Positions 28,496 to 47,618 of a stretch of DNA of 64,000 nucleotides are shown here, one piece after another; positions within the stretch are counted from its first letter, which is position 1; every line of letters starts with the position of its first letter. Origin of the DNA: Psychroflexus halocasei (GTDB lineage Bacteria; Bacteroidota; Bacteroidia; Flavobacteriales; Flavobacteriaceae); contig NZ_FNQF01000009.1 of the NCBI RefSeq assembly GCF_900107595.1, positions 1 to 64,000 on the forward strand, written 5' to 3'. The notes beneath the pieces were generated by a model, which saw only the letters and a program-made list of their open reading frames with translations, made no database searches and was not told where the DNA came from. The position numbers were made by a program, and so were the translations under genes.

Positions 28496-28523
28496 AATAC
28501 GCTATTGATTTATTTCTTATTTA

Positions 28524-31500: not shown

Positions 31501-31610
31501 TCATCGGTAGGAATATGCTCTACAAACTCGTTGTTTTCAAGTGATTGCACTTCTGGATTGTTTTCATCCAGTTGTGCTTCACTTTTCCAATATTTTTTTT
31601 CTGATGACAT
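28524..31610 (-). CDS. actB: alternative complex III subunit ActB, molybdopterin-oxidoreductase-like/iron-sulfur protein
   Basis: About 1028 residues. An unusual Tat-like signal is present after a 50-residue extension (TTRRDFLKYVGFSTAAASL, then C in AACEG), the TAT-variant export signal of ActB proteins. A molybdopterin-oxidoreductase-like domain (about 90-700) is followed by a ferredoxin-like domain with four cysteine clusters: CTGCGACVIAC, CQHCNHAPCETVC, CVGTRYCANNC and CSLC...CSAAC. ActB proteins are known to carry Fe-S clusters but no Mo cofactor. The frame extends to a TTG at 31622, but the ATG at 31610 gives the family's MSSEKKYWKS start. Confidence 0.94.
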   Translation of the reverse strand: MSSEKKYWKSEAQLDENNPEVQSLENNEFVEHIPTDEFLGNKEKLENSKTTRRDFLKYVGFSTAAASLAACEGPVVKSIPYVVQPDRLVPGVADYYATTIANGYDFASVLVKTREGRPIKIDNNTSAKDFTAGKARVHASVLDLYDIKRLQNPQIEGRDATWSEFDEKVGIELNLASTKKIVLLTQTFASPSTDRLIKQFKEKYPNTEHIVYDSVSEEAALKAFQGKFGYKALPNYDFSKAATIVSVGADFLGDWQGGGFDASYSRGREPKSGKMSRHVQFEANMTLSGGNADKRVATKPSVQKQVLVEIYNQIVSNAGSTELNAKTQKAVDSAVNSLKKGGSKSVLITGIQDEGAQRMALEINAALASTIIDTDNARMIRQGENSKIDRLIEEMQSGQIGVLMTAGINPVYSLPNSEEFTEAMQNVDATVAFSMKLDETATQAKYVASTPHYLESWGDVQLTKKTFSLIQPTIQPLFDTRQFEECLLNIISESTDYYGFIKETFNQNFGGLSWNQSLHDGTFTYESEVNKEDSEEETISSAFNASSVARQLLAHSGDNLELTLYTKTSIGDGQQSNNPWLQEMPDPITRTSWDNYITIAKSDAESLGLKNYNVADGALNGDYVNLTLGETTIENIPAFIQPGQAPGSIGLALGYGKTESIQEEMQVGHNAFKLYKDFNTHQDVSLSKGTGVHEFACVQLHHTMMGRRDIVKETTLEIFNTSEKDSWNKTPEVSLNHKPTKVTSPDVDLWQEFDREIGHHFNLSIDLNSCTGCGACVIACHSENNVPVVGKHEVRKSRDMHWLRIDRYYSSEDSLQGDYEKKDNISGLSESLSKFAELEEPSETDVQVIFQPVMCQHCNHAPCETVCPVAATAHSRQGQNHMTYNRCVGTRYCANNCPYKVRRFNWFQYSQNDEFDYHMNNDLGRMVLNPDVTVRSRGVMEKCSLCIQMTQKTILDAKRDGREIKDGEFQTACSAACDKGAMVFGDVNDKESKVVEKRDDDRMYHLLEYLGTKPNVMYQTKVRNTTEA

Positions 31611-31638
31611 ATCTCGATTCAAATTTTCTTCATTATTA

Positions 31639-32958
31639 TTAATAGTGACACTTACCGCATTCGATTCCGCCCATTTGAGCTGCAGTAACTTTTTCTACGC
31701 CATACTTTTTTGCTAGCTCTTCATGAATCTTTTCATAGTAAGCATTGCCTTCCATTTTAACATTTGTTTCTCTATGGCAATTAATACACCATCCCATTGT
31801 TAAAGGAGAATCTTGGTACATGATTTCCATTTCTTCAACTGGACCGTGACAAGTCTGACATTCAATTTGTCCTACGCTCACATGTTGAGAGTGATTAAAG
31901 TATGCAAAATCAGGAAGGTTGTGTATTCTTACCCATTTCACAGGTTTTGTTTCTCCCGTGTAAGATTGCGTTGAAGGATCCCATCCAGTTGCATCATAAA
32001 GCTTTTGGATTTCTCCGTCATAAAATTCTTTTGAGTATTCTTCAGTGGCTGTTTCGTCAGAAACTTCAGCAATTTGCTTATGACAATTCATACAGGTATT
32101 TAGTGAAGGAATGCCTGAATGTTTAGATTTTCTTGCAGATGAGTGACAATATTTACATTCAATTTGGTTATCGCCTGCGTGAATTCTGTGTGAGTAGTGA
32201 ATAGGTTGAATTGGTTCATAACCTTGGTCAACACCAACGTTCATCAAAGCACCATAGCCAAACCACGTCACGACTAAAAGCATAACACCAACAGTTAGAA
32301 TAATCAGGAATTGATTTTCTGCAAATGCAACCCAAATAGGCTTACCTTTTTCTTTTTTCTCTTCAACTTCAACACCATTAACTTCCGCAAATTTGCGTAA
32401 TGTTTTATTAACCAAGTAAAGAATTACTGCAAGCATCAATAAAACGAATGCTAATACGCCAATAATGACTTCATTAGAAATGCCAGATCCGCCACCGCCG
32501 TCTGCAACTGCAGCACCAGCCTCAGCTTCCTTCTTTTTTGGTTCTGGTTTTGGTTGTTCTACATATGCTAGAATGTCGTCAATGTCTTTATTGCTTAACT
32601 GGGGGAAAGCATTCATAGAAACTTTGTTCCATTCATTGTAAACAGCAACAGCTTCAGAATCTCCTGAAGCAATTAATTCTTGACTGTTCTTAATCCATTT
32701 GTAAAGCCATTCCATATCACGACGTTCAGTTACGCCATGTAAAGCAGGGCCCACACCGTCCTTGTAAGGTTTGTGACATGCAGCACATAAAGAATTGAAT
32801 AAATCCTTTCCGGCTACCGGGTCAGCTCCGGGAATCGCCGATTCAGTGCTTTCTGCAGATGCTTCATCTTCCTGAGCATAAGTGCTTGAAAGTGAAAAGA
32901 TAAGAATGGATAGTAAAAAATACTTTAAAATTCCTTGATTTAAGGTCACCTTTCTCAT
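31639..32958 (-). CDS. actA: alternative complex III subunit ActA, multiheme cytochrome c
   Basis: A 439-residue exported protein with signal peptide (about 1-28). Residues 45-135 form a class I monoheme cytochrome c domain (C58, C61, H62; likely Met ligand M115). Two membrane helices follow (about 163-183 and 214-237), then a multiheme domain with five more CxxCH sites at 268, 289, 367, 391 and 434, the last two residues from the C-terminus. That makes six heme sites; the classical ActA has five, so the N-terminal domain appears to be an added electron-transfer module. It is first in the ActA-F/coxBA operon. Confidence 0.93.
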   Translation of the reverse strand: MRKVTLNQGILKYFLLSILIFSLSSTYAQEDEASAESTESAIPGADPVAGKDLFNSLCAACHKPYKDGVGPALHGVTERRDMEWLYKWIKNSQELIASGDSEAVAVYNEWNKVSMNAFPQLSNKDIDDILAYVEQPKPEPKKKEAEAGAAVADGGGGSGISNEVIIGVLAFVLLMLAVILYLVNKTLRKFAEVNGVEVEEKKEKGKPIWVAFAENQFLIILTVGVMLLVVTWFGYGALMNVGVDQGYEPIQPIHYSHRIHAGDNQIECKYCHSSARKSKHSGIPSLNTCMNCHKQIAEVSDETATEEYSKEFYDGEIQKLYDATGWDPSTQSYTGETKPVKWVRIHNLPDFAYFNHSQHVSVGQIECQTCHGPVEEMEIMYQDSPLTMGWCINCHRETNVKMEGNAYYEKIHEELAKKYGVEKVTAAQMGGIECGKCHY

Positions 32959-33005
32959 AGTGTTGTAATTAACTATTTTTGTTAAGCTTGTAAGTTGTAA
33001 TATTC

Positions 33006-33018
33006 TGTTAATTTAACA
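33006..33018. other. 13-base palindrome downstream of the actA -7 box
   Basis: TGTTAA and TTAACA flank a single T. It lies just inside the predicted actA leader (minus strand) and is also upstream of the divergent SPOR gene, so it could be an operator. No regulator is assignable. Confidence 0.3.
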
Positions 33019-33033
33019 AGCCAGAATTGTTCA

Positions 33034-33041
33034 CAAAAGTA
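33034..33041 (-). promoter_or_regulatory. -7 promoter box of the actA operon
   Basis: TACTTTTG on the minus strand matches TAnnTTTG. The leader to the actA start at 32958 would be about 70 bases. No TTG -33 element is visible at standard spacing. Confidence 0.4.
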
Positions 33042-33147
33042 ATACTTAACAATGATTTTCTGAATAGACTCATTTGTTAAATGCTAATTTATAACGCTTC
33101 TAAATAGATTGTGACGCAAATATATTATTTTAGCTGAAAATTTTTCC

Positions 33148-33513
33148 ATGAAATATCTTTTTTGTTTTCTCTTCATTTATTCATCATTTACCGTTTTTTC
33201 TCAGTCAGAAATCAAAGGTGAAAATGCAAGGCTTGTACAAGAACTTAGTTCAACCAAAAGTAAGCTAGAGTCGAGATTTCAGCTGAAATCAGTTTATAAA
33301 ATACAAGTGTTTTCAGGAAGTATTCAACAAGCCAAAAAAGTCAAAAACGACTATGATCAGTTAGCGCTAGATTTTAGCTCAATGATTTTTTATGAGTCTC
33401 CAAATTACAAGGTTTGGATTGGAAGTTTCCGAACTAAACTAGATGCTGATAGAGCTTTTCTTGAATTAAAAAATGACTTTCCTCATGCTTTTGTGTTTCA
33501 ACCAGGTCGCTAA
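33148..33513 (+). CDS. secreted SPOR-domain protein
   Basis: A 121-residue protein with a signal peptide (MKYLFCFLFIYSSFTVFSQ) and a C-terminal SPOR domain (about 48-118; YKIQVFSGSIQQAKKVKND and YKVWIGSFRTKLDADRAF). SPOR domains bind denuded peptidoglycan strands. It is divergent from actA and 36 bases before the first DUF2064-like gene. A periplasmic envelope role is likely; a direct link to either neighbour is unproven. Confidence 0.85.
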   Translation: MKYLFCFLFIYSSFTVFSQSEIKGENARLVQELSSTKSKLESRFQLKSVYKIQVFSGSIQQAKKVKNDYDQLALDFSSMIFYESPNYKVWIGSFRTKLDADRAFLELKNDFPHAFVFQPGR

Positions 33514-33549
33514 CTTTATTTAATTAACACTTCTTTTACAATCGTTAAA

Positions 33550-34233
33550 ATGTTGTCCAATACGGCTATTTTATTTTTTTATCAGAATCCTGAATTCGAA
33601 AAGAAAAATCTGGGCGTAAAAAGGCAGCAATTTTTTCATTATCAAAACAATCGAATTCTAAAAGAATTAAAAAAGTCTGGGTTTAAATTTTTCTGTTATG
33701 ATGAATCAAAACAAAGAGGACAAACTTTTGCAGAGCGTTACCTCAATGCTATTGATGATGTTTTTAAACTAGGTTACAAAAAAGTCATTTCCATAGGGAA
33801 TGATTCACCACATTTAAACACTAATCACTTAAATCAAGCAGCTCTTGATCTTCAAAAGAAAGATATGTGTTTTGGGCCTTCTTATGATGGCGGTTTTTAT
33901 TTGTGGGGATTAAATCATTCGTGTTTTGATAAAGAAGCATTCTCTCAATTAAATTGGCAATCTTCAACAATTCTTGATGAAATCAACAATATTGCTGTTA
34001 TTCACAAACAAAGTTATTCACTTTTAGAAAAGTTAATTGACATTGATACTCAAGCTGATGTTGATCTAATTCTTACAAGTGAAAAGAAGTTGTCAACGTT
34101 GATCACCTTTCTGCTATCTGCAATGTTAAGTGTTAATCGGCTAGCTCAAGATTGTCACAACTCTCGTTTGTTAAAATCCAACACTCCAATTTATTATAAT
34201 AAAGGTTCGCCGCTTGATGTCGTTTTTCAGTAG
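33550..34233 (+). CDS. DUF2064/TIGR04282-like glycosyltransferase-fold protein, divergent copy
   Basis: A 227-residue protein. Its centre (about 78-125) has the family's nucleotide-binding core: KKVISIGNDSPHLN, then MCFGPSYDGGFYLWGL, parallel to VVIVGTDIQDLN and VVIGPASDGGYYLLGM in the gene at 42265. The N-terminus lacks the usual FARxPExGxxKTRL signature (it reads FFYQNPEFEKKNLGVKR), and a C-terminal extension of about 50 residues is unlike the family. NCBI names such proteins arsenosugar biosynthesis glycosyltransferase from gene neighbourhood; no arsenic genes are seen here. It is 31 bases before the TonB receptor start and opens the transport cluster. Confidence 0.7.
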   Translation: MLSNTAILFFYQNPEFEKKNLGVKRQQFFHYQNNRILKELKKSGFKFFCYDESKQRGQTFAERYLNAIDDVFKLGYKKVISIGNDSPHLNTNHLNQAALDLQKKDMCFGPSYDGGFYLWGLNHSCFDKEAFSQLNWQSSTILDEINNIAVIHKQSYSLLEKLIDIDTQADVDLILTSEKKLSTLITFLLSAMLSVNRLAQDCHNSRLLKSNTPIYYNKGSPLDVVFQ

Positions 34234-34264
34234 CATTTAATTGTTCATTTTTAACGCATCTTGC

Positions 34265-37252
34265 ATGTCCCGAATTTTATTTTTGTTTTTATGCTTACCT
34301 TTAATAGGTTCAGCACAGAATAACATATCAGCTCACATTTATAACAGTCACACAAATGAGCCTTTACAAAATGTTGAACTCAAATTATTCAATGTTTATC
34401 ATGGTTTTAAGCAATTACAAACAACTTCATCTGCGGGTGTTGCACATTTTAAATCTGTGCCTTCACTTGATGGATTTCAAATTGTATTTAATGGGAATTC
34501 TCAGTTTAAACAAGCTAAAAGTGAAGTATTCAATTTGCGTTCAAATGAAAACCCGACAATTATTTTATACGCAATTTCTACAAAATCAGAAATCCAGAAT
34601 TTAGATGAAGTTATTATTTCTTCTAAAAATCAGCCTCAATTAAATCGACGTGATGCTGAAGTTTCTTTTGAAATAAATTCTAAAGAAATTGAACAAATTC
34701 CCGTTGAAGGACGATCGATTTCAAAAGTGCTTCACCGCTTGCCAAATGTGACCAAAGCGACTGGATTTTTTACTGAAGCACCAAATGTAAGTGTCAATGG
34801 TGCCAATCCATTATTTACTAATTATACGGTTGATGGCTTAGATAATAATGAAAGATTTCTTGGAGGAATGCGATTTGCTATCCCATCAGGCGCTGTCAAA
34901 AATATGACTGTATTCACCAGTAATTATTCTGCGGAATATGGCTTGACACATAATGCTGTGATTGATGTGACAACAAAATCTGGTCGTAATCATCTTGAAG
35001 GAGAAGTTTTTTTCTTGACGCGACCTGGTTCTGTCATTGATGCTTCTAGTCCTTTTGCACAGAGAGATTTATCAGGCAATCAAGTTAAAGATGGTTTTGC
35101 ACGTTATCAATCAGGTTTTTCTCTTGGTGGACCTTTGGTAAAAAATAAAACTTTCTTTTTTATAAATTACGAACACACGACAGATGTGAAAGATAACTTG
35201 TTGAATAGTCCAGATTTAGGAATTTCTGAAACAATTAGAGGGAAAAATAATTTTGATTATGTCACAGTTAAAATTGATCAGCATTGGAGTTCTCGTTTTA
35301 GATCTTCATTGCGTGCCAATTTAGGTTTAATCACTATTGACAACCAAGGCGGCGGTTTAGATGGCGGAGTTGCATTTCCTTCAGCTGGTTTTGCGCAAGA
35401 ACGCAACAGCTTCAATTTAGCCTTTAAAAATGCTTATTATATTGATAATTTTGATTTTGAAACAAATTTTCAATACAGCCGCTTTCATTGGGATTATTCA
35501 AAATCTTTTCAAGATGGGCCTCAAGTCACAATCCGAAATCCTCAAGAGTTACCCATCGCAATTATCGGTAATAATGGAACGACCTTCGATGAGCTTGAAA
35601 ACACTTTTCAGTTTCAACAGAAAGTGAGTTATTTCTATAAAAATCATACCTTCAAAGCTGGATTTCAGTTTTTGTCCGGCCAACATCAACTTTTTGGCGG
35701 TGGCAATCCTGATGGTAATTATCTTGTTGATTTGTCACAAAACCAACTTGACTTTTTAAGATCTCAAAATTTTGGAAGTCAATTATCACCTGAAGGTCTT
35801 CCTGCAGATGTTGATGTTGTCAATTATAATGTCGAATTAAATCCAAATTCTTTTGGAGCAACACAAAGAATTTATAGCTTTTATCTTGAAGATGAATGGC
35901 AAGCTTCACGCAATTTAAAATTGACTTTTGGGTTAAGATACGATTATGACAATCTTTCAAAAGGCGGCGGAACAAAAAGTGACGAAAATAATATCGCACC
36001 ACGCTTAAATTTCAATTATCAATTGTCCGAAAACTCAGTGATCAGAGGTGGTTATGCCATTGCTTATGATAAAATTAATTATGCAATTTACAGCGATGCG
36101 CTTCAGCAAAACACAACTTCTGATGCTTATAAACAACAACTTCAAGCTTTGATTGATCAAGGTATTTTACCACAAAATACGTCTTTAGATCGCATCACTT
36201 TTGATGGGAATTTAGTTGCAAGTTTAACAGATGTCCCTTACCTCAATGCGCCAACGGCTTCAGATTTACAAAACCAAAGAGAAAGCATTTTTTCTAATGA
36301 ACGTCGTATCTTAAACCCTAACGGCTATCAAAATCCTTACAGTCATCAGTTTTCTTTGGGATATCAAACAAAAATTGATGGTGATAAATTATTTTTCATC
36401 GATCTTTTTCATAACCGAGGTGAAGATTTGTTTCGTTTACGAAATTTAAATGCTGCTGAAGAGATGACGATTGATCAAAATTTCACTGCAGCTGATGTGA
36501 GAACTGTTGAAGAAGCTGATGCTTCAAGACCTATTCCTATTAAAAATAATCAAGGGATTATTAATGGTCAGTGGGTTGATGGTGTTGCAAGAAACATTGT
36601 GATGACAGAATCAAAAGGGAAATCAGAATACTGGGCGGCGAGTTTTAATTTTCAAAAATCACGTGGCGATGATGCTTATAAACTCAGGCTAAATTATACG
36701 ATTTCTTCTTTAAAAAATAATACTGAGGATATCAACTTCCGAGCACAAGATGCTAATAATTATGAAGCAGAATGGGGACCGTCCATCAATGATAGAACGC
36801 ATAACATCAATGGGATTCTGACTTATTTTCCATTGAAAAACACGCAATTAACTTTTGCAGGTTTGTTGCAAAGCGGACAACCAATTAACAGAATTCCTGA
36901 TGCTGAAATATACGGAACCACTGATTTGAACGGAGACGGGTCAGGATTTGGTGAAGCTTATTTGGGTAACAGCGATAGGTCACCAGGTGAGTCTCGAAAT
37001 AACGATCGATTGCCTTGGTCTTTTAATTTTGATCTTGGGGCTCAATATCAATTCGTGTTTAATGAAAATTCACGTTTCATCATTCGTGCCGATGTTTTCA
37101 ATGTCTTTAATGTTGAAAATTTGAGCGGTTATAGCAATAATGCAACGCAGAGCAATCAGATTCAAGTTGGTTCAAAATCTTCAGGTCGTTTTGTTCAGCG
37201 TAATGCAGGTCCGCCACGTCAATTTCAGTTTGGTTTAACTTACTTATTTTAA
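34265..37252 (+). CDS. TonB-dependent outer membrane receptor, non-SusC type
   Basis: About 995 residues. The signal peptide (MSRILFLFLCLPLIGSAQ) shows the true start is the ATG at 34265; the frame opens upstream at a TTG at 34241. An N-terminal carboxypeptidase-regulatory-like domain (about 20-110) is followed by a TonB-box-like LDEVIIS, a plug (IEQIPVEGRSISKVLHRLPNV, NYTVDGLDNNERFLGG) and a 22-strand-type barrel ending FGLTYLF. There is no SusD partner, so this is not a glycan SusCD system. It lies four bases from the YnjB-like gene, so it should import the same substrate that the ABC transporter takes up. Confidence 0.92.
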   Translation: MSRILFLFLCLPLIGSAQNNISAHIYNSHTNEPLQNVELKLFNVYHGFKQLQTTSSAGVAHFKSVPSLDGFQIVFNGNSQFKQAKSEVFNLRSNENPTIILYAISTKSEIQNLDEVIISSKNQPQLNRRDAEVSFEINSKEIEQIPVEGRSISKVLHRLPNVTKATGFFTEAPNVSVNGANPLFTNYTVDGLDNNERFLGGMRFAIPSGAVKNMTVFTSNYSAEYGLTHNAVIDVTTKSGRNHLEGEVFFLTRPGSVIDASSPFAQRDLSGNQVKDGFARYQSGFSLGGPLVKNKTFFFINYEHTTDVKDNLLNSPDLGISETIRGKNNFDYVTVKIDQHWSSRFRSSLRANLGLITIDNQGGGLDGGVAFPSAGFAQERNSFNLAFKNAYYIDNFDFETNFQYSRFHWDYSKSFQDGPQVTIRNPQELPIAIIGNNGTTFDELENTFQFQQKVSYFYKNHTFKAGFQFLSGQHQLFGGGNPDGNYLVDLSQNQLDFLRSQNFGSQLSPEGLPADVDVVNYNVELNPNSFGATQRIYSFYLEDEWQASRNLKLTFGLRYDYDNLSKGGGTKSDENNIAPRLNFNYQLSENSVIRGGYAIAYDKINYAIYSDALQQNTTSDAYKQQLQALIDQGILPQNTSLDRITFDGNLVASLTDVPYLNAPTASDLQNQRESIFSNERRILNPNGYQNPYSHQFSLGYQTKIDGDKLFFIDLFHNRGEDLFRLRNLNAAEEMTIDQNFTAADVRTVEEADASRPIPIKNNQGIINGQWVDGVARNIVMTESKGKSEYWAASFNFQKSRGDDAYKLRLNYTISSLKNNTEDINFRAQDANNYEAEWGPSINDRTHNINGILTYFPLKNTQLTFAGLLQSGQPINRIPDAEIYGTTDLNGDGSGFGEAYLGNSDRSPGESRNNDRLPWSFNFDLGAQYQFVFNENSRFIIRADVFNVFNVENLSGYSNNATQSNQIQVGSKSSGRFVQRNAGPPRQFQFGLTYLF

Positions 37253-37256
37253 TAAA

Positions 37257-38474
37257 ATGAAATTTTTAAAACTCGCTTTTAGTATATTAATTTTATTTTT
37301 TTTGATGTCTTGTCAAGAATCAAAAAAACAAGAAAAGATTGATTTGTCAGAATTATCTTGGGATGAAATTATTGAACAAGGCAAGTCTCAAGAGATCAAT
37401 ATGATGATGTGGAAAGGCGACCCAAAAATCAATGCTTATATGCAAGATGTTGTGAAACCTTTAGTGAAAGAAAAATACAATGTCAAACTCAATATAATCA
37501 GTGGTCAAGGTAATGTTTTGGTGCAAAGTTTAATGAACGAAATTCAGGCGAATGTGAGTCAAAGTGAACTTGATATGCTCTGGATTAACGGCGAAACTTT
37601 TTATCAATTACGACAGATTGATGCTTTGTTTGGCCCATGGACTGAAAAACTTCCGAATGCAAAATATATCGATTTTGAGAATCCTTTCATAGGTAAAGAT
37701 TTTCAGCAAGAGATAAATGGTTATGAAATGCCTTGGGGAAATGTTCAAATGACTTTAATCTATAATTCTGATAAAGTTCAAAACCTACCACAATCACGAG
37801 AAGAATTATTTGATTTTGTTAAAGAAAACCCAGGTAAATTAACTTTCGATAATCATTTTACGGGTTTAACTTTTATGAAAAGTTTACTGATTGATATTGC
37901 TGGAAGGAAAACACTTTCTGGTGAATTTGATGAAGAAAAATACATGAAGTACAGCGCAGAATTATTTTCTTATCTCAAAAAAATAAAACCTTATTTATGG
38001 CGAAAAGGCAAAGTTTTTCCTGAAGATGTGGCGCAAATACATCAACTTTTTGCCGCTGGTGAATTATGGTTTACAATGAGTAATAATGACGCAGAAGTGG
38101 ATAATAAAATTAGCGAAGGTCTCTTTTCAAAAAATTCGCGGGCTTATGTTCCCGAATTCGGAAGTATCCAGAACTCTCACTATCTCGGGATTCCTGAAAA
38201 ATCTGCTTATAAATTATCAGCGATGCTGGTAATTAATGAAATGATTTCGCCTGAATTACAGTTTCAAAAAATGCGACCAGAAGTTTGGGGAGACGGAAGT
38301 GTTCTTGATTTTAAAAAGTTGCCTATAGAGATTCAAAAGAAATGGAATTCTTCAAAAAAAAGACAATATGCGCCATCAAGAGTTGAAATTCAGAAAAATG
38401 CTTTGCAAGAATTGGCACCAGAATATATGATAAGATTGGCGGATGATTTTCAAGAAAAAATACTTCAAGAGTGA
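37257..38474 (+). CDS. YnjB-like ABC transporter substrate-binding lipoprotein
   Basis: A 405-residue lipoprotein (lipobox LMSC, C19). Body motifs MMWKGDPKINAYM, MLWINGETFYQLR and EMPWGNVQMTLIYN match my memory of COG4134/YnjB, the periplasmic part of the uncharacterised E. coli YnjBCD transporter. The family is distantly related to Fe3+, thiamine and polyamine binders. Its substrate is unknown. The TGA stop overlaps the GTG start of the first permease (GTGA), showing translational coupling. Confidence 0.82.
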   Translation: MKFLKLAFSILILFFLMSCQESKKQEKIDLSELSWDEIIEQGKSQEINMMMWKGDPKINAYMQDVVKPLVKEKYNVKLNIISGQGNVLVQSLMNEIQANVSQSELDMLWINGETFYQLRQIDALFGPWTEKLPNAKYIDFENPFIGKDFQQEINGYEMPWGNVQMTLIYNSDKVQNLPQSREELFDFVKENPGKLTFDNHFTGLTFMKSLLIDIAGRKTLSGEFDEEKYMKYSAELFSYLKKIKPYLWRKGKVFPEDVAQIHQLFAAGELWFTMSNNDAEVDNKISEGLFSKNSRAYVPEFGSIQNSHYLGIPEKSAYKLSAMLVINEMISPELQFQKMRPEVWGDGSVLDFKKLPIEIQKKWNSSKKRQYAPSRVEIQKNALQELAPEYMIRLADDFQEKILQE

Positions 38475-39340
38475 ATCTAAAATTTACATACACAAAACTT
38501 CTCAGAGTCATTTTCTTGATGTTGATCCTCTTGCCAACTTTGGCAGGTTTTACTTATGCTTTGCTTTATAGTTTTGGCCTAACGGGTTTGCTTAGTGAAG
38601 GTTTCACCTTAAAGCATTGGACTGAAACTTTATCTGATTTCTATGCTTGGAAGTCCATTGGTTTTAGTTTAATGATTGCCATGATCAGTGTGTTTATCAG
38701 TTTTTGGATATCACTTTTTTTGGTTTTAAAACTCACAAAAGATTTTCAAAAGAAATGGTTTCACCGTCTAATTTTCGTGCCTTTGTGTTTCCCAGCAACC
38801 GTGATGGCCTTATATGTGCTACAAACTTTTTCTAAATCAGGTTTTTTTTCAAGAATAAGTTATCAATTGGGTTTTATTGATCAAATAGAAAGTTTTCCTG
38901 AATTAACAAATGATGCTTACGGTATCGGGATTATGCTGACTTCAGTTTTGATGGTTTTTCCTTTTTTTACAATTTATATCAAAAATATTTTTGATGCCGA
39001 AAAACTAAATGAATATCAGCAGTTGTCACAAAGTTTAGGAGCTTCATCTCTACAAACGTTCTGGAAAATTTCATTACCAATTTTATGGCGAAAATCTAAA
39101 CTGACTTTGATGCTTTACATCATTTTTGTGATGGGAAGTTATGAGGTGCCTTTACTTTTAGGTCGACAAAATCCGCAGATGATAACACCACGAATTGTTG
39201 ATAAAGCACAGCGCTTTAATCTTCAAGATATTCCTCAGGCTTATGCCATGGCACTAATGTATTTAGGTGTTGTTTTAATTTTAATTCTAGTGACTTCAGC
39301 TTCTTTTGTTCAATTTTTTAAAAGAAAATCTGATGCTTAA
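38471..39340 (+). CDS. ABC transporter permease, N-terminal half of a YnjC-like pair
   Basis: A 289-residue inner-membrane permease with six or seven helices and the BPD_transp_1 loop signature (SLGASSLQTFWKISLPILW, about 187-205). It starts with GTG at 38471, overlapping the YnjB-like stop. In E. coli YnjC is one fused protein of about 500 residues with two permease domains; here they are separate genes. It is expected to pair with the next permease as a heterodimer. Confidence 0.88.
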   Translation: MNLKFTYTKLLRVIFLMLILLPTLAGFTYALLYSFGLTGLLSEGFTLKHWTETLSDFYAWKSIGFSLMIAMISVFISFWISLFLVLKLTKDFQKKWFHRLIFVPLCFPATVMALYVLQTFSKSGFFSRISYQLGFIDQIESFPELTNDAYGIGIMLTSVLMVFPFFTIYIKNIFDAEKLNEYQQLSQSLGASSLQTFWKISLPILWRKSKLTLMLYIIFVMGSYEVPLLLGRQNPQMITPRIVDKAQRFNLQDIPQAYAMALMYLGVVLILILVTSASFVQFFKRKSDA

Positions 39341-40109
39341 AAGAACTATACATCTCGTTTTAATCACCCTAATTTTATTACCTATCTTGGTTTTAATGAT
39401 GTTGTCATTTGGTGAGCAATGGATTTTTCCTGATGTTTTCCCTCAAAATTTCAACACCAAAACTTGGCTGAAATTGTTTTCATCAGATTCTGAAATAAGT
39501 AAAAGTTTAGGCTTATCGGTTCTGATATCTTTAAGTGTTGCTTTTTTATCAACCTTAATGGCTTTTGTTTTTTCTAAAGTGATTTCGACCTCAAAATATA
39601 AAAATCAATACATCAAACTTGCTTATTTACCATATATATTATCACCAGTTGTTTTGGGCGTTTTATGGCATTATTTTGCTGTGGTTTTAAAACTAAATGC
39701 AAGCTTTTTTGGTGTTGTTTTAGCACAATTTCTCATTTGTTTTCCTTTTGGTTTTATCATATTATCGAGTTTCTGGTCTCGTCATATTTATGATATTCAA
39801 AATTTGAGTTTCACTTTAGGCGCTTCAACATATTTTAGTTTTAAAAGAATTATTTTTCCCTTAGCAAAACCTATTTTAGGTTTATGTTTCTTTCAATGTT
39901 TTCTGATTTCGTGGTTTGATTATGGTTTAACACAATTAATCGGTGGCGGACAAATCAAAACACTAACTTTATCGGTGTTTAATTTTATCAAAGAGGCTAA
40001 TATTTTCTTGGCAGCTATAGCAAGTTTACTTCTCTTGTTTCCTCCGTTATTGCTTTTGTTTTTTAATAAAAAAATTAAGTTTAAAAGAAGTTTGATTAAC
40101 ACTCATTAA
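39333..40109 (+). CDS. ABC transporter permease, second half of a YnjC-like pair
   Basis: About 258 residues with six helices and the EAA-like loop FTLGASTYFSFKRIIFPLAKP. The frame opens at a TTG (39306), but the ATG at 39333 leaves a normal N-terminus (MLKRTIHLVLITLILLPILVL) and an eight-base overlap with the upstream permease. Its last residues lie one base before the ATPase start. Heterodimeric partner of the permease at 38471. Confidence 0.88.
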   Translation: MLKRTIHLVLITLILLPILVLMMLSFGEQWIFPDVFPQNFNTKTWLKLFSSDSEISKSLGLSVLISLSVAFLSTLMAFVFSKVISTSKYKNQYIKLAYLPYILSPVVLGVLWHYFAVVLKLNASFFGVVLAQFLICFPFGFIILSSFWSRHIYDIQNLSFTLGASTYFSFKRIIFPLAKPILGLCFFQCFLISWFDYGLTQLIGGGQIKTLTLSVFNFIKEANIFLAAIASLLLLFPPLLLLFFNKKIKFKRSLINTH

Positions 40110-40110
40110 A

Positions 40111-40839
40111 ATGCGATTAGAACTTAAAAATATATCTAAAAGCTTTCAGCAAAAACCTGTTTTATCTTCAGTTAATTTACAATTAAATGAAAATCAGGTC
40201 ATCAGTGTTTTAGGAAAATCTGGAAGTGGAAAAACGAGTTTATTAAAAATCATAGCCGGACTTGAAAAACCTGATTCTGGTGATGTTTTTCTAAATCAAA
40301 AATCCATTTTAAATAAGAAGGTTAATCAACGACAAATTGTTTATCTCTTTCAGGAAGCTTTACTTTTTCCACATTTAAATGTGTTCGACAATATCGCTTT
40401 TGGGTTACAAGCGCAAAAAGTTGAAGCAACAGAAATAGAAAGTCGCGTTAAAGCTATTTTAAAAGAAATTGCATTGTCAGATCATTCTTCTAAATTCCCG
40501 CTTCAATTATCAGGCGGCGAAAAACAGCGCGTTGCATTTGCGAGAGCCATCATCATCGAACCTCAAGTTTTATTGCTCGATGAACCTTTTGGCGCATTGG
40601 ATGTGGAGACTCGCGAAAATATGCAAAAGCTGTTTTTAAAACTGATCAAACAATATGGAATTTCAGCTTTATTTGTTACCCACGATTTAAAAGAAGCTCT
40701 GATGATTGGTGATCAAATTGCTAAAATTGATCATGGCCATTTGAGAACATATCAAAATAAAAAAGATTTTATTCAAGATGAAAAATCTGGAGTAAAAGAA
40801 GAAATTGATTTTTGGACGAAAATCCAAGAATTTGAATAG
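40111..40839 (+). CDS. ABC transporter ATP-binding protein, YnjD-like
   Basis: A 242-residue ABC ATPase with Walker A GKSGSGKTS, Q-loop LFQEALLFPH, signature LSGGEKQRVAFARA, Walker B VLLLDEPFGALD and the His switch VTHD. There is no long C-terminal regulatory domain, unlike PotA/FbpC, consistent with the short YnjD type. It powers the two permeases directly upstream. Confidence 0.9.
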   Translation: MRLELKNISKSFQQKPVLSSVNLQLNENQVISVLGKSGSGKTSLLKIIAGLEKPDSGDVFLNQKSILNKKVNQRQIVYLFQEALLFPHLNVFDNIAFGLQAQKVEATEIESRVKAILKEIALSDHSSKFPLQLSGGEKQRVAFARAIIIEPQVLLLDEPFGALDVETRENMQKLFLKLIKQYGISALFVTHDLKEALMIGDQIAKIDHGHLRTYQNKKDFIQDEKSGVKEEIDFWTKIQEFE

Positions 40840-40846
40840 TTGAAAA

Positions 40847-41797
40847 ATGAAGAAAGATTTTAATCACGTTGAATCGCTTTATTGGGTTTTCACACAACTT
40901 TGTAATGACGATTGTGACCATTGTTATAACGATTCAAGTCCTTTTGGGGCGAGAATTTCAAAAGAAGATTGTTTTGCAATTATCGAGAATATGCCTGATC
41001 GCGTTGATCGTTTGATCTTGAGCGGTGGCGAACCTTTATCTGAGATTAAACTACTTTATGCTATTTTAGATAAAATTCAAGAAAAATACGGAGACGAAAC
41101 ACAAGTGATGCTTCAAACAAACGGAGACTTGTTGAACAAAGAGAAACTTGAAATTTTAATCGAAAAAGGTGTCAGACGTTTTGATATCGCAAGTATTGAT
41201 CGCTACCACAAAAAAGCAGGAAGTCGTCTAGCTGAATTAGGTGAAATTTTTGAGAGTTGCGGCGTGAATGGCACAGAAAAAGATCCTTTGATTGAAGGCG
41301 GACATTATTTAGCCGAAAACCCTTTGAGCTGGGGTTACTGGGGTGCAACTGAAGAAATGTGGCTCGGCGGAAATTGGGCGAGAGGCAAAGCCGTTAAAAA
41401 TGATATTTATAAAAAGGATCCAGATCATAATTTCTGTAATATTTTATCAGGCGCCAGAAACTTTTTAGGCGGTTATGATGATATTCCTAATGAATTTAGC
41501 ATTCAGTTATGGCGCATTAATCCATGTTGTCCAGGCACACATTTTCCGATGGGCGATGCAAGAAAAGAAAAAGTTGTCGATGTTTTGGAGCGCGCTTCAA
41601 AAAACTTGGTTTTCAGAATGCTTAACGAAGGAAAGCCATTAAAAATGGGAGAACATCTCGGTGTTTCTCAAGAAGAATCTAAAGCCAAAAATGCTGATTT
41701 GAAAAACATCTGTTTGTATTGCGATGAATTTATGAAATGTCATAAAGATGAAATTTTTGATAAAAATGGCGTGATGGCAACTGATGCTATTTCATAA
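40847..41797 (+). CDS. radical SAM protein with extra C-terminal cysteines
   Basis: A 316-residue radical SAM enzyme. The CX3CX2C loop is at C19, C23, C26 (QLCNDDCDHCY), followed by SGGEP at 59-63. Additional cysteines occur at 138, 197, 227/228 (INPCCPG) and C289-x2-C292-x5-C298, which could hold an auxiliary iron-sulfur cluster in a shortened SPASM/Twitch-like region. The C19 loop implies use of S-adenosylmethionine to start a radical reaction. Unlike ArsS of arsenosugar synthesis, no such motifs are recognisable, so the substrate is unknown. It starts eight bases after the ATPase and 18 bases before the rhodanese. Confidence 0.85.
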   Translation: MKKDFNHVESLYWVFTQLCNDDCDHCYNDSSPFGARISKEDCFAIIENMPDRVDRLILSGGEPLSEIKLLYAILDKIQEKYGDETQVMLQTNGDLLNKEKLEILIEKGVRRFDIASIDRYHKKAGSRLAELGEIFESCGVNGTEKDPLIEGGHYLAENPLSWGYWGATEEMWLGGNWARGKAVKNDIYKKDPDHNFCNILSGARNFLGGYDDIPNEFSIQLWRINPCCPGTHFPMGDARKEKVVDVLERASKNLVFRMLNEGKPLKMGEHLGVSQEESKAKNADLKNICLYCDEFMKCHKDEIFDKNGVMATDAIS

Positions 41798-41815
41798 CTG
41801 ATTAAAGCTTGTGAA

Positions 41816-42268
41816 ATGTCACTATCCCATAAAGAAATTATTCAAGAGTTACTAACGAAGAAAAATACGGGTGAAATTCCTTATATTTCTGTTGAAGATT
41901 TATATCGACAAAAACATAATGATTTTCTTGTTTTTGACACACGTGAAGAGGCTGAATATAATGTGAGCCATTTGCCAAATGCAATTCATATTGGTTATGA
42001 AAATTTTGACTTAAAAAGTTTTCAAAATCAGTATTCAAAATATTCACAAATCATTCTGTATTGCTCTTTAGGTGTACGCTCAGAACGCATAGGCATTCAA
42101 CTTCAGAAAGCAGGATTTCAATCTGTCAACAATTTATATGGCGGGATATTTCATTGGGCTGACTTTGATTATCCACTTTTTGATTCTTCAAATGAAATCA
42201 CCGGGAAAGTTCATGTTTATAGTTTAAAATGGGAAAAATATCTTTTTAAAGCCAAAGCTGTTTTATGA
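41816..42268 (+). CDS. rhodanese-domain sulfurtransferase
   Basis: A 150-residue single-domain rhodanese. DTREEAEYNVSHLPNAIHI is the entry motif and the active-site loop is C83-SLGVRSE, a persulfide-carrying cysteine. A 30-residue C-terminal tail follows. E. coli ynjBCD is also followed by a rhodanese gene (ynjE), so this pairing is conserved across phyla. It probably delivers sulfane sulfur to a product of the cluster. It overlaps the next gene by four bases. Confidence 0.88.
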   Translation: MSLSHKEIIQELLTKKNTGEIPYISVEDLYRQKHNDFLVFDTREEAEYNVSHLPNAIHIGYENFDLKSFQNQYSKYSQIILYCSLGVRSERIGIQLQKAGFQSVNNLYGGIFHWADFDYPLFDSSNEITGKVHVYSLKWEKYLFKAKAVL

Positions 42269-42882
42269 GTAAGGAAAAAAAACTCTTATTGATTTTTGCA
42301 CGACATCCTGAATTAGGAAAATGCAAAACAAGATTAGCTAAAAGCGTTGGCGAACATGCGGCTCTGGAAGTTTATAAATATCTGCTGAAAAACACTGCCG
42401 AGATCACTCAAAAAATCAATGTTAAAAGACAAGTTTGGTATGCAGATCAGATTCATAAAAATGACATTTGGGATGATGGTTTATTTGAAAAAAGAGAGCA
42501 AATTCAAGGTGATTTAGGTGAAAAAATGCAGCATGCTTTTGAAACTGCTTTTCATGAAAATGCTGAGAAGGTTGTGATTGTTGGGACTGATATTCAAGAT
42601 TTAAACGAAAAAGTGATTAATCAAGCTTTTAAAAAACTTGATACAAATGATGTGGTGATTGGTCCTGCTTCAGATGGTGGTTATTATTTATTAGGAATGG
42701 AAAGTTTGAATCCTGAAGTTTTCCAGCTTAAAGAATGGAGCACATCACAAGTTTTTAATCAGACAATTGATGCGCTCAAGGACAAAAAAATAAGTATTTT
42801 AGAGCAGAAAAATGATGTTGATTATCTAGATGATATTAAAGGAAACACAGAATTAGAAAACATTATAAAAAAGTACAAATGA
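42265..42882 (+). CDS. DUF2064/TIGR04282-family glycosyltransferase-like protein
   Basis: A 205-residue GT-A-like protein with full family signatures: LIFARHPELGKCKTRLAK at the N-terminus (nucleotide-sugar loop), KVVIVGTDIQDLN, then VIGPASDGGYYLLGM, and DVDYLDDI near the end. NCBI calls the family arsenosugar biosynthesis glycosyltransferase because of its usual neighbours; the reaction itself is not established for this context. It overlaps the rhodanese by four bases and the PNP gene by four bases. A divergent paralogue opens the same cluster at 33550. Confidence 0.85.
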   Translation: MSKEKKLLLIFARHPELGKCKTRLAKSVGEHAALEVYKYLLKNTAEITQKINVKRQVWYADQIHKNDIWDDGLFEKREQIQGDLGEKMQHAFETAFHENAEKVVIVGTDIQDLNEKVINQAFKKLDTNDVVIGPASDGGYYLLGMESLNPEVFQLKEWSTSQVFNQTIDALKDKKISILEQKNDVDYLDDIKGNTELENIIKKYK

Positions 42883-43694
42883 CATATATAGAACAAACAG
42901 TTGACTATTTAAGAGAGAGAGGTTTTGAGTCACCTGAGATTGGAATTATTTTAGGAACAGGATTAGGGAAGTTACCTGATGAAGTTGAGATTTTAGCGGA
43001 AGTCAGTTATAATCATATTCCGCATTTTCCGACAGCAACAGTTGAGTTTCATAAGGGCAAACTGATTTATGGAAATCTTGAAGGTAAGAAAGTTGTGATT
43101 ATGCAAGGTCGCTTTCACCTTTATGAAGGCTATGATTTTCTTGATGTGACTTATCCAGTTCGAATAATGAATCGATTAGGAATCAAAAAATTATTAGTGT
43201 CGAATGCTGCTGGCGCGATTAATCTAGATTTCAAAAAAGGCGATATCATGCTGATTGATGATCACATTAATTTATTGGGCGGCTCACCTTTAGCTTTTAA
43301 AGGTGTTTCAAAAACTGGTGATCGTTTTGTAGATATGAGTTGTCCTTACGACAAAAAAATGAGCGAAAAAATTGAGGCGATAGCCAAACGTAATGACATC
43401 GCGTTACACAAAGGTATTTATGCTTCAGTAAAAGGACCTCAACTTGAAACAAGAGCTGAATATCGTTATTTGAAAATTATTGGAGCCGATGCTGTTGGGA
43501 TGAGTACAGTTCCAGAAATTATTGTGGCAAACCACCTGAAGCTTCCTGTTGTTGCTGTTTCTGTGTTAACTGACGAATGTGATCCTGATGATTTACAAGA
43601 AGTTGATGTGCAGTCTATTTTAGACATGTCAGCTAAAGCTGAACCTAAAATGATTAAGCTGTTTAAAGAATTAATTGCTGATTTAGAAGTTTAA
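42879..43694 (+). CDS. purine nucleoside phosphorylase
   Basis: A 271-residue trimeric-type PNP (PNP/MTAP family): ILGTGLG phosphate loop, QGRFHLYEGY, LLVSNAAGAIN, YASVKGPQLETRAEYR and the C-terminal VSVLTDECDPDD. It cleaves purine nucleosides with phosphate to base and ribose-1-phosphate. In its cluster it might act on a nucleoside or adenosyl derivative made by the radical SAM enzyme, or simply on an imported nucleoside. It is the last gene of the tight run and is followed by a terminator. Confidence 0.93.
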   Translation: MTYIEQTVDYLRERGFESPEIGIILGTGLGKLPDEVEILAEVSYNHIPHFPTATVEFHKGKLIYGNLEGKKVVIMQGRFHLYEGYDFLDVTYPVRIMNRLGIKKLLVSNAAGAINLDFKKGDIMLIDDHINLLGGSPLAFKGVSKTGDRFVDMSCPYDKKMSEKIEAIAKRNDIALHKGIYASVKGPQLETRAEYRYLKIIGADAVGMSTVPEIIVANHLKLPVVAVSVLTDECDPDDLQEVDVQSILDMSAKAEPKMIKLFKELIADLEV

Positions 43695-43722
43695 AAATTA
43701 ATATTTTAATAAGAATTTAATT

Positions 43723-43755
43723 AAAAAGCATAGTTTTGAAAACTATGCTTTTTTT
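43723..43755 (+). terminator. terminator after the PNP gene
   Basis: AAGCATAGTTTT and AAAACTATGCTT form a hairpin followed by a T run. It ends directly at the GTG start of the next gene, so read-through might feed that gene. Confidence 0.8.
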
Positions 43756-44847
43756 GTGATTGTGAGAATTTTATTTGTATTTATTTTATTTTTAGGCTTC
43801 GGTGTGACGCAAGCGCAAAGTCAAATTGATGGTTTTCATGTGTCTTATCTTTTCGGGAAAGTGATTATGCATAAACCAGAAATGTCACACCTCGTTCAAG
43901 GACCAACGCATGGTTTTTCTTTGTCTTATGATCACTTTTTAACTGGTGAAAAAGAATGGCATCAACTTTACAATTATCCAAGTTTTGGTGTGAGCTTTGT
44001 TTATCAAAACATGGGAGCAACGCAGTTAGGGAATGTTTATAGTCTTCATCCACATTATAAATTCTATTTTCTTAAGCGTCGACTGAATTTGAAGTTTGGT
44101 TTAGGTTTGGGATACATTACAAACCCTTTTGATAAAATTGATAATCCTAAAAATGTGGCTTACGGATCAAAACTAACAGCTAGTGTTTTATTTGAATTAT
44201 CTTACCAATCTCAGCGATTGTTTAATCTACCATTAAGATTTCAAGCTGGATTATTTTTGATGCACTACTCAAACGGGAAAATGCAATCACCAAATACAGG
44301 TACAAATAATTATGGTCTTTCTGCCGGTTTGACTTATGATGTTTCTGAAGACGTAAATTTTAAGGAGAAAGAAATCACAGAAACTCCAATCAAGCCAATG
44401 AATTACCAATTTATATTTGCTTCAGGGTTTAATGATTTAGGATTATTACAATCAAAAAAATATCCTTTCTTTACATTCACAACTTTGGCTGAAAAGCCTT
44501 TAACTCATAAAAATGCAATACAACTTGGCGCTGATTTATTTTTGAGCCAAGCTGCAAAAGAACATAACGTTTATAAAGAAGCCGCTTTCCCAAATGATGG
44601 TATTTCTGCGGATGATGATTACAAAAGAATCGGACTTTTTGGAGGACATCGTTTTTATATGGGAAAACTTAATGTGGCCACTCAAATCGGTTACTATATA
44701 TATTACCCTGTTGATTATTTAAAGAGAGTTTATACCAGAATTGGTCTACAATATGATATTTCAAAACACTTTTTTGGTTCTTTATTATTGAAAACACATT
44801 TTGCAAAAGCAGAATCAATTGAATTTGGAATCGGATTTAAATTATGA
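43756..44847 (+). CDS. PagL-like acyloxyacyl hydrolase family outer membrane protein
   Basis: A 363-residue exported protein, with signal peptide MIVRILFVFILFLGFGVTQAQ starting at a GTG (43756; another GTG at 43762). Alternating aromatic strands form a barrel, and MHYSNGKMQSPNTGTNNYG carries the His-x-Ser pair of the lipid A 3-O-deacylase (PagL) active site. It is about twice the length of Pseudomonas PagL, as in the Bacteroidota acyloxyacyl hydrolase family. The activity is not proven. It overlaps the following lipoprotein gene by four bases. Confidence 0.75.
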   Translation: MIVRILFVFILFLGFGVTQAQSQIDGFHVSYLFGKVIMHKPEMSHLVQGPTHGFSLSYDHFLTGEKEWHQLYNYPSFGVSFVYQNMGATQLGNVYSLHPHYKFYFLKRRLNLKFGLGLGYITNPFDKIDNPKNVAYGSKLTASVLFELSYQSQRLFNLPLRFQAGLFLMHYSNGKMQSPNTGTNNYGLSAGLTYDVSEDVNFKEKEITETPIKPMNYQFIFASGFNDLGLLQSKKYPFFTFTTLAEKPLTHKNAIQLGADLFLSQAAKEHNVYKEAAFPNDGISADDDYKRIGLFGGHRFYMGKLNVATQIGYYIYYPVDYLKRVYTRIGLQYDISKHFFGSLLLKTHFAKAESIEFGIGFKL

Positions 44848-45593
44848 GAAACATTTTTTTTTACATATTTATAATCACATTATTTTCTTGCGATATTGAA
44901 GACGCCAAAGATTGCTTGCGTTCACATTCTGAAAAGGAAACCTATGAACAAACCATCATCGCTATTGAAGAAGTGATTGTACGCAGAGATATTCAACTTT
45001 CTGTGAAACAATCAACTGAAAATAAATTGGAAATCATCACCGATCAAAAGTCTTTTGAAAATTTAAATATTGAGTTTAATAATCAAACTTTAGAATTAAG
45101 TTTGGACAATGTTTGTCCTTTTGGAAATTCAGAACCTTTTGCCGAAATTGTTTTGCATGTGACTGATATTCGACAAATCCGAAATTCAAGTCAGTACACA
45201 ATACAAAGTCTTGGGCAGCTCAATTTTCCTTTTTTAAGATTGATATCTGAGAGTTATAATGACAATGATGCTTTAAATTCTGGCGATTTTAAAATGGATA
45301 TTGATGTAAATAATTTTGGGATCGTCAGTTCAGGTATTTCAGATTTCTACATCACAGGAAAAACCAATAAAATGTCACTCGGTTTTTATGATGGTTCTGG
45401 TGCCTTTTATGGAGAAAATCTTCAGGCACAAGAAGTTGATATATTTTACCGATCGAGCAGAAATTCACAACTTAACGTACAGCAAAAAGCTGTTGGTGAA
45501 ATTCGCTCGACAGGTTCAATATATTTTCAGCAAACGCCTAACAATTTAGCGATTGAATGTTTTTATACAGGATGTTGGTTTGTGACAGATTAG
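44844..45593 (+). CDS. DUF2807 (GIN-domain) lipoprotein
   Basis: A 249-residue lipoprotein (lipobox LFSC, C16) with repetitive beta-strand content typical of DUF2807, the putative auto-transporter adhesin head domain (IVLHVTDIRQIRNSSQY, then GDFKMDIDVNNFGIVSSGISDFYITGK). The function of such proteins is unknown. It ends convergently with greA and overlaps it by four bases. Confidence 0.75.
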   Translation: MRNIFFYIFIITLFSCDIEDAKDCLRSHSEKETYEQTIIAIEEVIVRRDIQLSVKQSTENKLEIITDQKSFENLNIEFNNQTLELSLDNVCPFGNSEPFAEIVLHVTDIRQIRNSSQYTIQSLGQLNFPFLRLISESYNDNDALNSGDFKMDIDVNNFGIVSSGISDFYITGKTNKMSLGFYDGSGAFYGENLQAQEVDIFYRSSRNSQLNVQQKAVGEIRSTGSIYFQQTPNNLAIECFYTGCWFVTD

Positions 45594-46066
45594 TCACGTG
45601 AGATCTCGATAATCTCAAAAGTAAGTGTGCCATTTGGAACTTTGATTTCAGCGAGGTCGCCTTCTTCTTTACCAAGTAAGCCTTTACCGATAGGAGAGTC
45701 AACAGAAATTTTATTTGACTTTAAATCAGCTTCGCTTTGCGCGACCAATTTATAAGTCATTTCTTGATTTGTCTTTGTGTTTTTAAGCTTCACAGTAGAG
45801 TGAATCAGGATTTTAGAAGTATCCAATTGAGATTCGTCAATGACGCGTGCATTTGAGACAACTTCTTCTAATTTTGAAATTTTCATTTCCAACATACCTT
45901 GTGCTTCTTTTGCAGCATCGTACTCAGCATTTTCACTCAAGTCGCCTTTGTCTCTTGCTTCACCAATTGCTTGTGAAGCTTTAGGCCTTTCAACATCTCT
46001 TAATTGGTCAAGCTCAGCCTTCAGCTTTTTTAAGCCTTCTTCTGAATAATAAGAAACTTTACTCAT
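45590..46066 (-). CDS. greA: transcription elongation factor GreA
   Basis: A 158-residue GreA of standard length. An N-terminal coiled coil (about 1-75) carries the acidic tip motif DLSENAEYDAAKEAQ, whose Asp and Glu coordinate the Mg2+ in the polymerase secondary channel; the C-terminal FKBP-like domain ends VPNGTLTFEIIEIS. It rescues backtracked RNA polymerase by stimulating transcript cleavage. Its leader has a hairpin followed by T7 between promoter and start, like an attenuator. Confidence 0.97.
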   Translation of the reverse strand: MSKVSYYSEEGLKKLKAELDQLRDVERPKASQAIGEARDKGDLSENAEYDAAKEAQGMLEMKISKLEEVVSNARVIDESQLDTSKILIHSTVKLKNTKTNQEMTYKLVAQSEADLKSNKISVDSPIGKGLLGKEEGDLAEIKVPNGTLTFEIIEISRD

Positions 46067-46084
46067 AATCTTAGATTTATATCA

Positions 46085-46115
46085 TAAAAAAAGAATCCCG
46101 CTTTTACGAGATTCT
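46085..46115 (-). terminator. attenuator-like hairpin in the greA leader
   Basis: On the minus strand AGAATCTCG and CGGGATTCT form a nine-pair stem (one G-U) with a six-base loop, followed by seven T, 18 bases before greA's ATG. It begins at the predicted transcription start, so a short terminated RNA of roughly 30 nt is possible. Confidence 0.6.
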
Positions 46116-46121
46116 AAGTTA

Positions 46122-46152
46122 CAAATGTAATAATTTTACAGATTGAAATCAA
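46122..46152 (-). promoter_or_regulatory. promoter of greA
   Basis: On the minus strand TTG (46150-46152), 20 bases, then TACATTTG (46122-46129) fit the flavobacterial consensus. The leader of about 50 bases contains a terminator-like hairpin. Confidence 0.6.
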
Positions 46153-46164
46153 TAGTTTTAAGTT

Positions 46165-47551: not shown

Positions 47552-47566
47552 GATACAAAGATGAAT

Positions 47567-47598
47567 AAAAAAATCCTGATGAGATATCAGGATTTTTG
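47567..47598 (-). terminator. terminator after the M36 peptidase
   Basis: AAATCCTGAT and ATCAGGATTT form a hairpin with a five-base loop, followed on the minus strand by a T run. It lies between the peptidase stop (47619) and the ABC ATPase start (47551). Confidence 0.8.
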
Positions 47599-47618
47599 AG
47601 AATTAATATTTTAGATTG

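Follow-up and report, generated by a model that had tools for sequence, protein, structure and literature searches.

Positions 33550-43694 of the window, by which we mean the whole 64,000-nucleotide stretch of Psychroflexus halocasei contig NZ_FNQF01000009.1 analyzed here, carry a YnjBCD-type ATP-binding cassette (ABC) importer together with a TonB-dependent outer-membrane receptor, a radical S-adenosylmethionine (radical SAM, rSAM) protein, and several partner enzymes. The unit DUF2064a-TonB-YnjB-permease-permease-ATPase-rSAM is a conserved Bacteroidota operon. Our preferred explanation, which is tentative and to which we give somewhat less than even weight, is that the operon serves to import and process a ribonucleoside or ribosyl compound of the 5-deoxy-5-substituted kind, with an arsenosugar-type organoarsenical as the likeliest candidate, and that it replaces the de novo ArsM/ArsS route. 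Four computed observations carry this explanation: the gene order, a site-for-site replacement by arsenosugar genes, exclusion statistics across the phylum, and the alternation of processing enzymes among sister operons. Genome context thus points the YnjBCD family to a 5-substituted ribosyl compound and links it to arsenosugar genes, and an orphan transporter family that is also present in E. coli gains a testable job. The E. coli importer has, to our knowledge, remained an orphan for a long time, and the genome record annotates it as putative.

A conserved operon around a YnjBCD-type importer

The window open reading frames (ORFs) place ten genes on the plus strand:

33550..34233, +, DUF2064 protein 1 (DUF2064a); PF09837 74.6 bits, TIGR04282 100.6 bits, under the cut-off of 134
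34241..37252, +, TonB-dependent outer-membrane receptor of the OMP_b-brl_4 type, presumably Oar-like; PF25183 197.7 bits, Plug, TonB barrel
37257..38474, +, YnjB-family substrate-binding protein; NF008633 354.9 bits, cut-off 203
38471..39340, +, ABC permease 1; BPD_transp_1
39306..40109, +, ABC permease 2, likely start ~39336; no Pfam match, weak PhnV/PotC/ModB-type permease matches
40111..40839, +, YnjD-like ABC ATPase; ABC_tran 120.7 bits
40847..41797, +, rSAM protein of an unnamed family; Radical_SAM 52 bits
41816..42268, +, rhodanese NF045521 ('rhoda_near_glyco'), no leader; 169.9 bits, cut-off 145
42265..42882, +, DUF2064 protein 2 (DUF2064b), a canonical, CofC-like TIGR04282 protein; 211.1 bits, cut-off 134; CofC 33.4 bits
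42879..43694, +, purine nucleoside phosphorylase (PNP); NF006054 337 bits, cut-off 218

The first-pass annotation had described nine genes on one strand; the positions, the strand, and the tight packing hold, and the count is corrected to ten. With the listed start codons, the intergenic gaps range from -35 to +18 bases, and 36 bases separate the run from the preceding gene. For the TonB receptor and permease 2, the true start is probably downstream of the listed TTG. No Rfam match was found in 28000-48000 at E up to 0.1. The importer, which we take to be COG4134, is complete in the window: a binding protein over its cut-off is encoded in one operon with a pair of permease domains and a single ATPase. 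Permeases 1 and 2 would correspond to the first and second halves of E. coli YnjC. The assignment of the binding protein to YnjB, already made from the letters alone, is confirmed, and the protein matches no thiamine, iron, polyamine, or 2-aminoethylphosphonate importer binding family, no NCBIfam model besides NF008633 at 0.01, and no PDB sequence at 0.01.

Relatives of the rSAM protein were sought with two peptide patterns in the GTDB genome collection, where 131 were found; the best 80 loci were analyzed, so the counts that follow are conditional on close relatives. Upstream counts use the 64 loci that extend 9 kb or more in that direction (the 16 shorter loci are not counted), and downstream counts use the 67 with at least 3.5 kb downstream (13 shorter loci are not counted). 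The TonB receptor, YnjB, both permeases, the ATPase, and the rSAM gene occur together in 56 of the 64 loci, and 52 of these 56 also have a DUF2064 match. Taken singly, a DUF2064 match lies upstream of the rSAM gene in 55 loci, a TonB receptor in 59, and each of permease 1, permease 2, and the ATPase in 58. This order of six or seven core genes is far beyond chance and bears out the earlier proposal of a conserved uptake-and-conversion system. Downstream, the rhodanese (9/67), DUF2064b (8/67), and PNP (9/67) are a flavobacterial add-on, outside the wider conserved unit. When we asked whether the genes are kept together at all, the answer was therefore divided: the core of seven holds, whereas the rhodanese, the second DUF2064 protein, and the PNP are conditional partners. 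Bacteroidota lineages are named for all rSAM relatives except two (one Thalassovita, one 'bacterium'). The protein is rare in the window's own family, where the window genome and just one other of 199 have it, and no copy was found in the plasmid collection at 1e-10.

Exchange with arsenosugar genes and nucleoside-cleaving enzymes

No such rSAM was found in two congener genomes (G174, G541). At the same site, these genomes carry DUF2064a-TIGR04169-type peroxidase-ArsS-AsSugarArsM-rhodanese-DUF2064b-PNP (loci L118/L119), and TonB-YnjB-permease 1-permease 2-ATPase-rSAM stands in place of peroxidase-ArsS-ArsM. ArsS and AsSugarArsM score over their cut-offs at both loci, and the peroxidase shares 72-76% identity with a TIGR04169 protein; the DUF2064 and rhodanese genes were profile-scanned for L118. 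The counterpart of the window operon at this site is of the arsenosugar-locus kind, ArsM-ArsS (TIGR04167) with TIGR04169, TIGR04282, and TIGR04283, whose genes putatively make arsenic-containing sugars. The window operon shares with it DUF2064a, the NF045521 rhodanese, the TIGR04282 protein, and the PNP. Both flanks are common to the two congeners, with the window's genes of 484, 1032, 439, and 121 amino acids upstream and those of 158, 144, 323, and 708 amino acids downstream. In a PNP tree, which has long branches (L035, L125), the window sequence groups not with the congeners but with three loci that have the rSAM at the site (L008, L014, L019; support 97/94), which makes it probable that the shared genes travelled along with the cassette.

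The two gene sets also occur side by side. ArsS and the rSAM operon are found together in Aquimarina and Ulvibacter (L009, L016, L021). Downstream, L009 and L016 also have genes of the TIGR04283 and DUF547 types, and AsSugarArsM is present in the Aquimarina genomes. At L011, ArsS lies ~0.6 kb upstream of the examined stretch. As a separate observation, an ArsM-like methyltransferase beside the rSAM gene is accompanied in five loci by two genes, GAT7 and GAT8 (L011:7893-9997, L018:7970-9998, L022:7996-9999, L077:5793-7851, L087:10779-13055). Scanned in L011, neither has a Pfam or NCBIfam match; both look like glutamine-amidotransferase-fold proteins.

The same relation appears at the level of the phylum. 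In a sample of 395 genomes, ArsS was found in 155, the glycosyltransferase TIGR04283 in 218, YnjB in 21, and the rSAM in 7. YnjB and ArsS are each associated with TIGR04283. None of the 21 YnjB genomes has ArsS, versus 155 of the 374 others (Fisher P 3e-5), and within ArsS-negative genomes TIGR04283 is present in 16/21 with YnjB versus 67/219 without it (P 6e-5). All P values except the stratified ones treat genomes as independent. Stratification of the TIGR04283-positive genomes by family gives a one-sided P of 0.001 for zero YnjB/ArsS overlap, and a two-genus test gives P 0.002 (g272, five ArsS vs three YnjB; g280, eight vs one). Such a pattern is expected if a single pathway can be fed from either of two sources. 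An arsenosugar connection, which the first-pass annotation had offered as one hypothesis, is thus seen both at the congener site and in the YnjB/ArsS statistics, and the site swap, taken with the exclusion, suggests that the product of ArsM/ArsS is what YnjBCD operons scavenge. In 51 of the 395 genomes, TIGR04283 is strongly matched where both ArsS and YnjB are missing; a third route or another use of the glycosyltransferase could account for these.

What stands in for the rSAM elsewhere bears on the chemical class of the ligand. We compared 17 YnjB loci, 16 from genomes without an rSAM match and one from G468, by profile scans on a sample and by BLAST for the remainder. In 12 of them, the position after the ATPase is occupied either by an MTAP-like phosphorylase (eight loci) or by a nucleoside hydrolase of the IU type, IUNH (four loci), and nine of those 12 loci have a methylthioribose-kinase-like (MTRK-like) gene. 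None of these genes was detected by tblastn at 1e-8 in the 87 rSAM loci (the window included, several of them short) or in 15 ArsS loci. The scanned MTAP-like proteins score 97-107 bits and the MTRK-like proteins 74-112 bits, far under the cut-offs of 275, which suggests that they act on a different, though related, substrate. The hydrolase-type operons (L142-L145) use a SusC-like protein as receptor, with a SusD-like gene in three of the four and an MTRK-like gene in three. Loci without an MTAP or IUNH match are L138 (7.8 kb covered), L141 (2.6 kb after permease 2, no ATPase match), L149 (the contig ends at the ATPase), and L146 and L148, where a distant rSAM takes that place. This last protein (genomes G427, G546) is of the SPASM type, is ~26-33% identical over most of its length, and adjoins an E. 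coli-type YnjB; the rSAM-YnjB pairing may therefore predate the Bacteroidota operon.

In a YnjB tree, for which ORFs of 380-450 amino acids from the 80 loci were used, the MTAP and hydrolase types are neighbors of the rSAM types and are interspersed with them. The rSAM label requires five changes on it, at least two of them forced by well-supported branches. The window YnjB is 57% identical to an MTAP-type protein (L134), 42% to two of the hydrolase type, and 50-63% to two of the rSAM type. The importer stays the same while its processing partner is either a nucleoside-cleaving enzyme or the rSAM, which makes a 5-modified nucleoside or ribosyl compound the likeliest ligand.

Proposed pathway and alternatives

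From these observations we infer the ligand, the rSAM reaction, the involvement of arsenic, and any role for DUF2064a and the rhodanese. In the pathway that we propose, the TonB receptor would carry the compound across the outer membrane, and YnjB would bind it and pass it to the split YnjC-like permeases and the YnjD-like ATPase for import into the cytosol. There, the rSAM would perform the processing that sister operons leave to an MTAP-like or nucleoside-hydrolase enzyme, mostly with an MTRK-like partner. The ribose moiety may then be handled by the PNP together with DUF2064b, a nucleotidyltransferase-like protein; both genes are also found after ArsS in sister operons. Taken to its full extent, the proposal comprises a dedicated uptake system for arsenosugars or arsenic nucleosides, an rSAM that processes 5-arsenoribosyl compounds, a YnjBCD family (that of E. 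coli too) that imports 5'-modified nucleosides, and a make-or-scavenge cassette swap at one site; this larger set of claims is, in our judgment, unlikely to be right throughout. If true, it would mean a dedicated bacterial uptake system, a new rSAM enzyme, and a make-or-scavenge switch, all testable in culturable marine flavobacteria. A 2025 review, where it treats the absorption of arsenicals into cells, describes the mechanisms by which small organoarsenicals, including arsenosugars, are taken up as largely unknown (PMC12608789). Among the papers listed from the open-licence PubMed Central literature, none was seen to describe the operon and none matched dimethylarsinoyl-adenosine, and the titles and abstract openings of the seven that mention YnjB do not treat its substrate.

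Several findings weigh against the arsenosugar explanation, and arsenic and the rSAM reaction are its weakest links. ArsM and ArsS, noted earlier as missing from the window, were also not found in the whole window genome (G000) with TIGR04167 and NF038099 (AsSugarArsM), the TIGR04167 search returning the window rSAM as its sole match. TIGR04283 gave no match there at 1e-30 and two in each of the congeners. The TIGR04282 protein of arsenosugar loci is present, as DUF2064b. Immediately after the PNP, the genes of 363 and 249 amino acids have counterparts in G541, and none were found in G174. ArsS- or ArsM-type genes occur in the examined DNA of only 9 of the 80 rSAM loci; four ArsM-like enzymes (L011, L018, L022, L077) lack one cysteine of the canonical ArsM of L087, and in Ulvibacter (L016) ArsS is present but no AsSugarArsM match was found. 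Among 50 rSAM genomes hand-picked from the 80 loci, 12 have ArsS (~20 expected; P 0.04), so the exclusion between YnjB operons and ArsS is not absolute. TIGR04283 is missing from 15 of the 38 rSAM-positive, ArsS-negative genomes, so that many genomes are without the presumed common last part of the pathway; over all 395 genomes, its association with YnjB is weak (16/21 vs 202/374, P 0.07). YnjB itself is missing from 6 of the 64 rSAM loci. Two loci (L036, L049) have DUF2064, TonB, and rSAM genes without the ABC importer, as do L105 and L107, where rSAM identity is ~50%.

The PNP belongs in the same account. All 25 genomes compared have a single match to its family, and we rejected it as a dedicated paralogue; it is likely a household gene drawn into the operon. 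Household PNPs match an MTAP-like protein weakly by blastp. The hint of nucleoside or sugar exchange in the first-pass annotation pointed in the right direction, as the MTAP-like, IUNH, and MTRK-like partners in sister operons indicate.

The main rival is a non-arsenic 5'-modified nucleoside. The operon would then import and salvage a common compound such as methylthioadenosine (MTA), methylthioribose (MTR), or 5'-deoxyadenosine/5-deoxyribose as a source of carbon, sulfur, or purine, which we consider rather unlikely while taking it seriously. The partner enzymes of the sister operons fit it well, and in Peptoclostridium a nucleoside hydrolase lies beside YnjB. A report on 5-deoxyribose salvage describes a phosphorylase, or a nucleosidase plus a kinase, as the two entries to that pathway, and putative sugar transporters in some of its clusters (PMC6079011). 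Sister YnjBCD operons carry the same two entries; the window differs in having the rSAM in that position. The lack of ArsS, AsSugarArsM, and TIGR04283 matches in the window genome is also easily accommodated. However, salvage without arsenic leaves the ArsS/YnjB exclusion, the site-for-site swap, and the TIGR04283 association unexplained, and the scanned phosphorylases and kinases fall far under the MTA and MTR cut-offs. A 5-deoxyribose isomerase or aldolase was not noticed beside the phosphorylase and kinase genes, although no profile search for them was made.

It is quite improbable that the operon imports a scarce metal- or sulfur-bearing compound on which the rSAM and the rhodanese would perform radical and sulfur-transfer chemistry, as first proposed. 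A TonB receptor, a complete ABC importer, an rSAM, and a rhodanese do share one operon, and rhodanese-type genes also occur in the E. coli and Ilyobacter YnjBCD loci. Against this, few loci have a rhodanese after the rSAM gene, the nucleoside-type enzymes that take its place in sister operons favor a ribosyl ligand, and we found nothing pointing to a large or metal-bearing one. A hydrophobic leader-like stretch, judged by eye, begins 11 of the 13 rhodaneses compared, those of the window and L008 being without it. The rhodanese is thus probably exported in most relatives, going by its N-terminus, and cytosolic sulfur transfer as a general step is doubtful. Finally, that the rSAM matures a protein or a ribosomally synthesized and post-translationally modified peptide (RiPP), with the transporter moving the peptide or its product, is very improbable: the SPASM/twitch-type fold speaks for it, as does the high rank of the peptide epimerase EpeE among the fold matches, but a precursor gene would not fit within operon gaps of at most 18 bases, and the maturase models among the 25 matches listed score far under their cut-offs (no separate search for a RiPP recognition element was made).

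Component proteins and other YnjBCD loci

Of 44 NCBIfam matches to the rSAM protein, the 25 best all fall short of their cut-offs, the top one with 40.2 bits against 380. Its identification as ArsS was rejected (TIGR04167, 19.5 bits vs 300 required). Across an alignment of 40 relatives, the CxxxCxxC motif and C42, C197, C227, and C228 are invariant, and C289 and C292 are nearly so, a SPASM/twitch-like arrangement. The structure model (predicted local distance difference test, pLDDT, 83.5) likewise resembles SPASM/twitch enzymes. EpeE and BtrN are the first fold matches, followed by viperin and, lower, SpeY, at a TM score of ~0.5 to the closest solved folds and an identity of only 15-18% in the ten best.

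YnjB has an invariant N-terminal Cys in an alignment of 37 and is likely a lipoprotein, to judge from this residue. Across 16 YnjB proteins, 46 positions are invariant or nearly so. Its model (pLDDT 93.6) has a PotD/FutA/AfuA-type fold, a generic class that includes polyamine and iron binders, and the predicted fold is uninformative for the ligand. In an alignment of 15, the GKxKTRLA motif that the TIGR04282 copies have at the N-terminus is missing from DUF2064a, which has a C-terminal tail of its own. The two rhodaneses without a leader are at 41816-42268 in the window and at L008:10978-11439; their location in the cell may have changed.

The E. coli locus ydjXYZ-ynjABCDE resembles the window operon in its binding protein, permeases, and ATPase, the window YnjB scoring over the NF008633 cut-off. 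AhpD/CMD-type and sulfurtransferase genes lie in its vicinity, a trait shared with the most complete flavobacterial operons. It differs in that the window operon has split permeases, a TonB receptor, DUF2064a, and the rSAM, and is without the ydjXYZ genes; E. coli YnjA gives no TIGR04169 match. Outside Bacteroidota, surveyed in eight plasmid-collection records and E. coli K-12, the partners of YnjBCD vary and include TVP38-type proteins, FAD oxidoreductases, CDP-alcohol phosphatidyltransferases, CMD proteins, rhodaneses, and DUF547. A CDP-alcohol phosphatidyltransferase is adjacent or nearly so in five of the eight plasmid-collection loci (L110-L117), often with TVP38 and an FAD oxidoreductase, which hints at a lipid-linked product.

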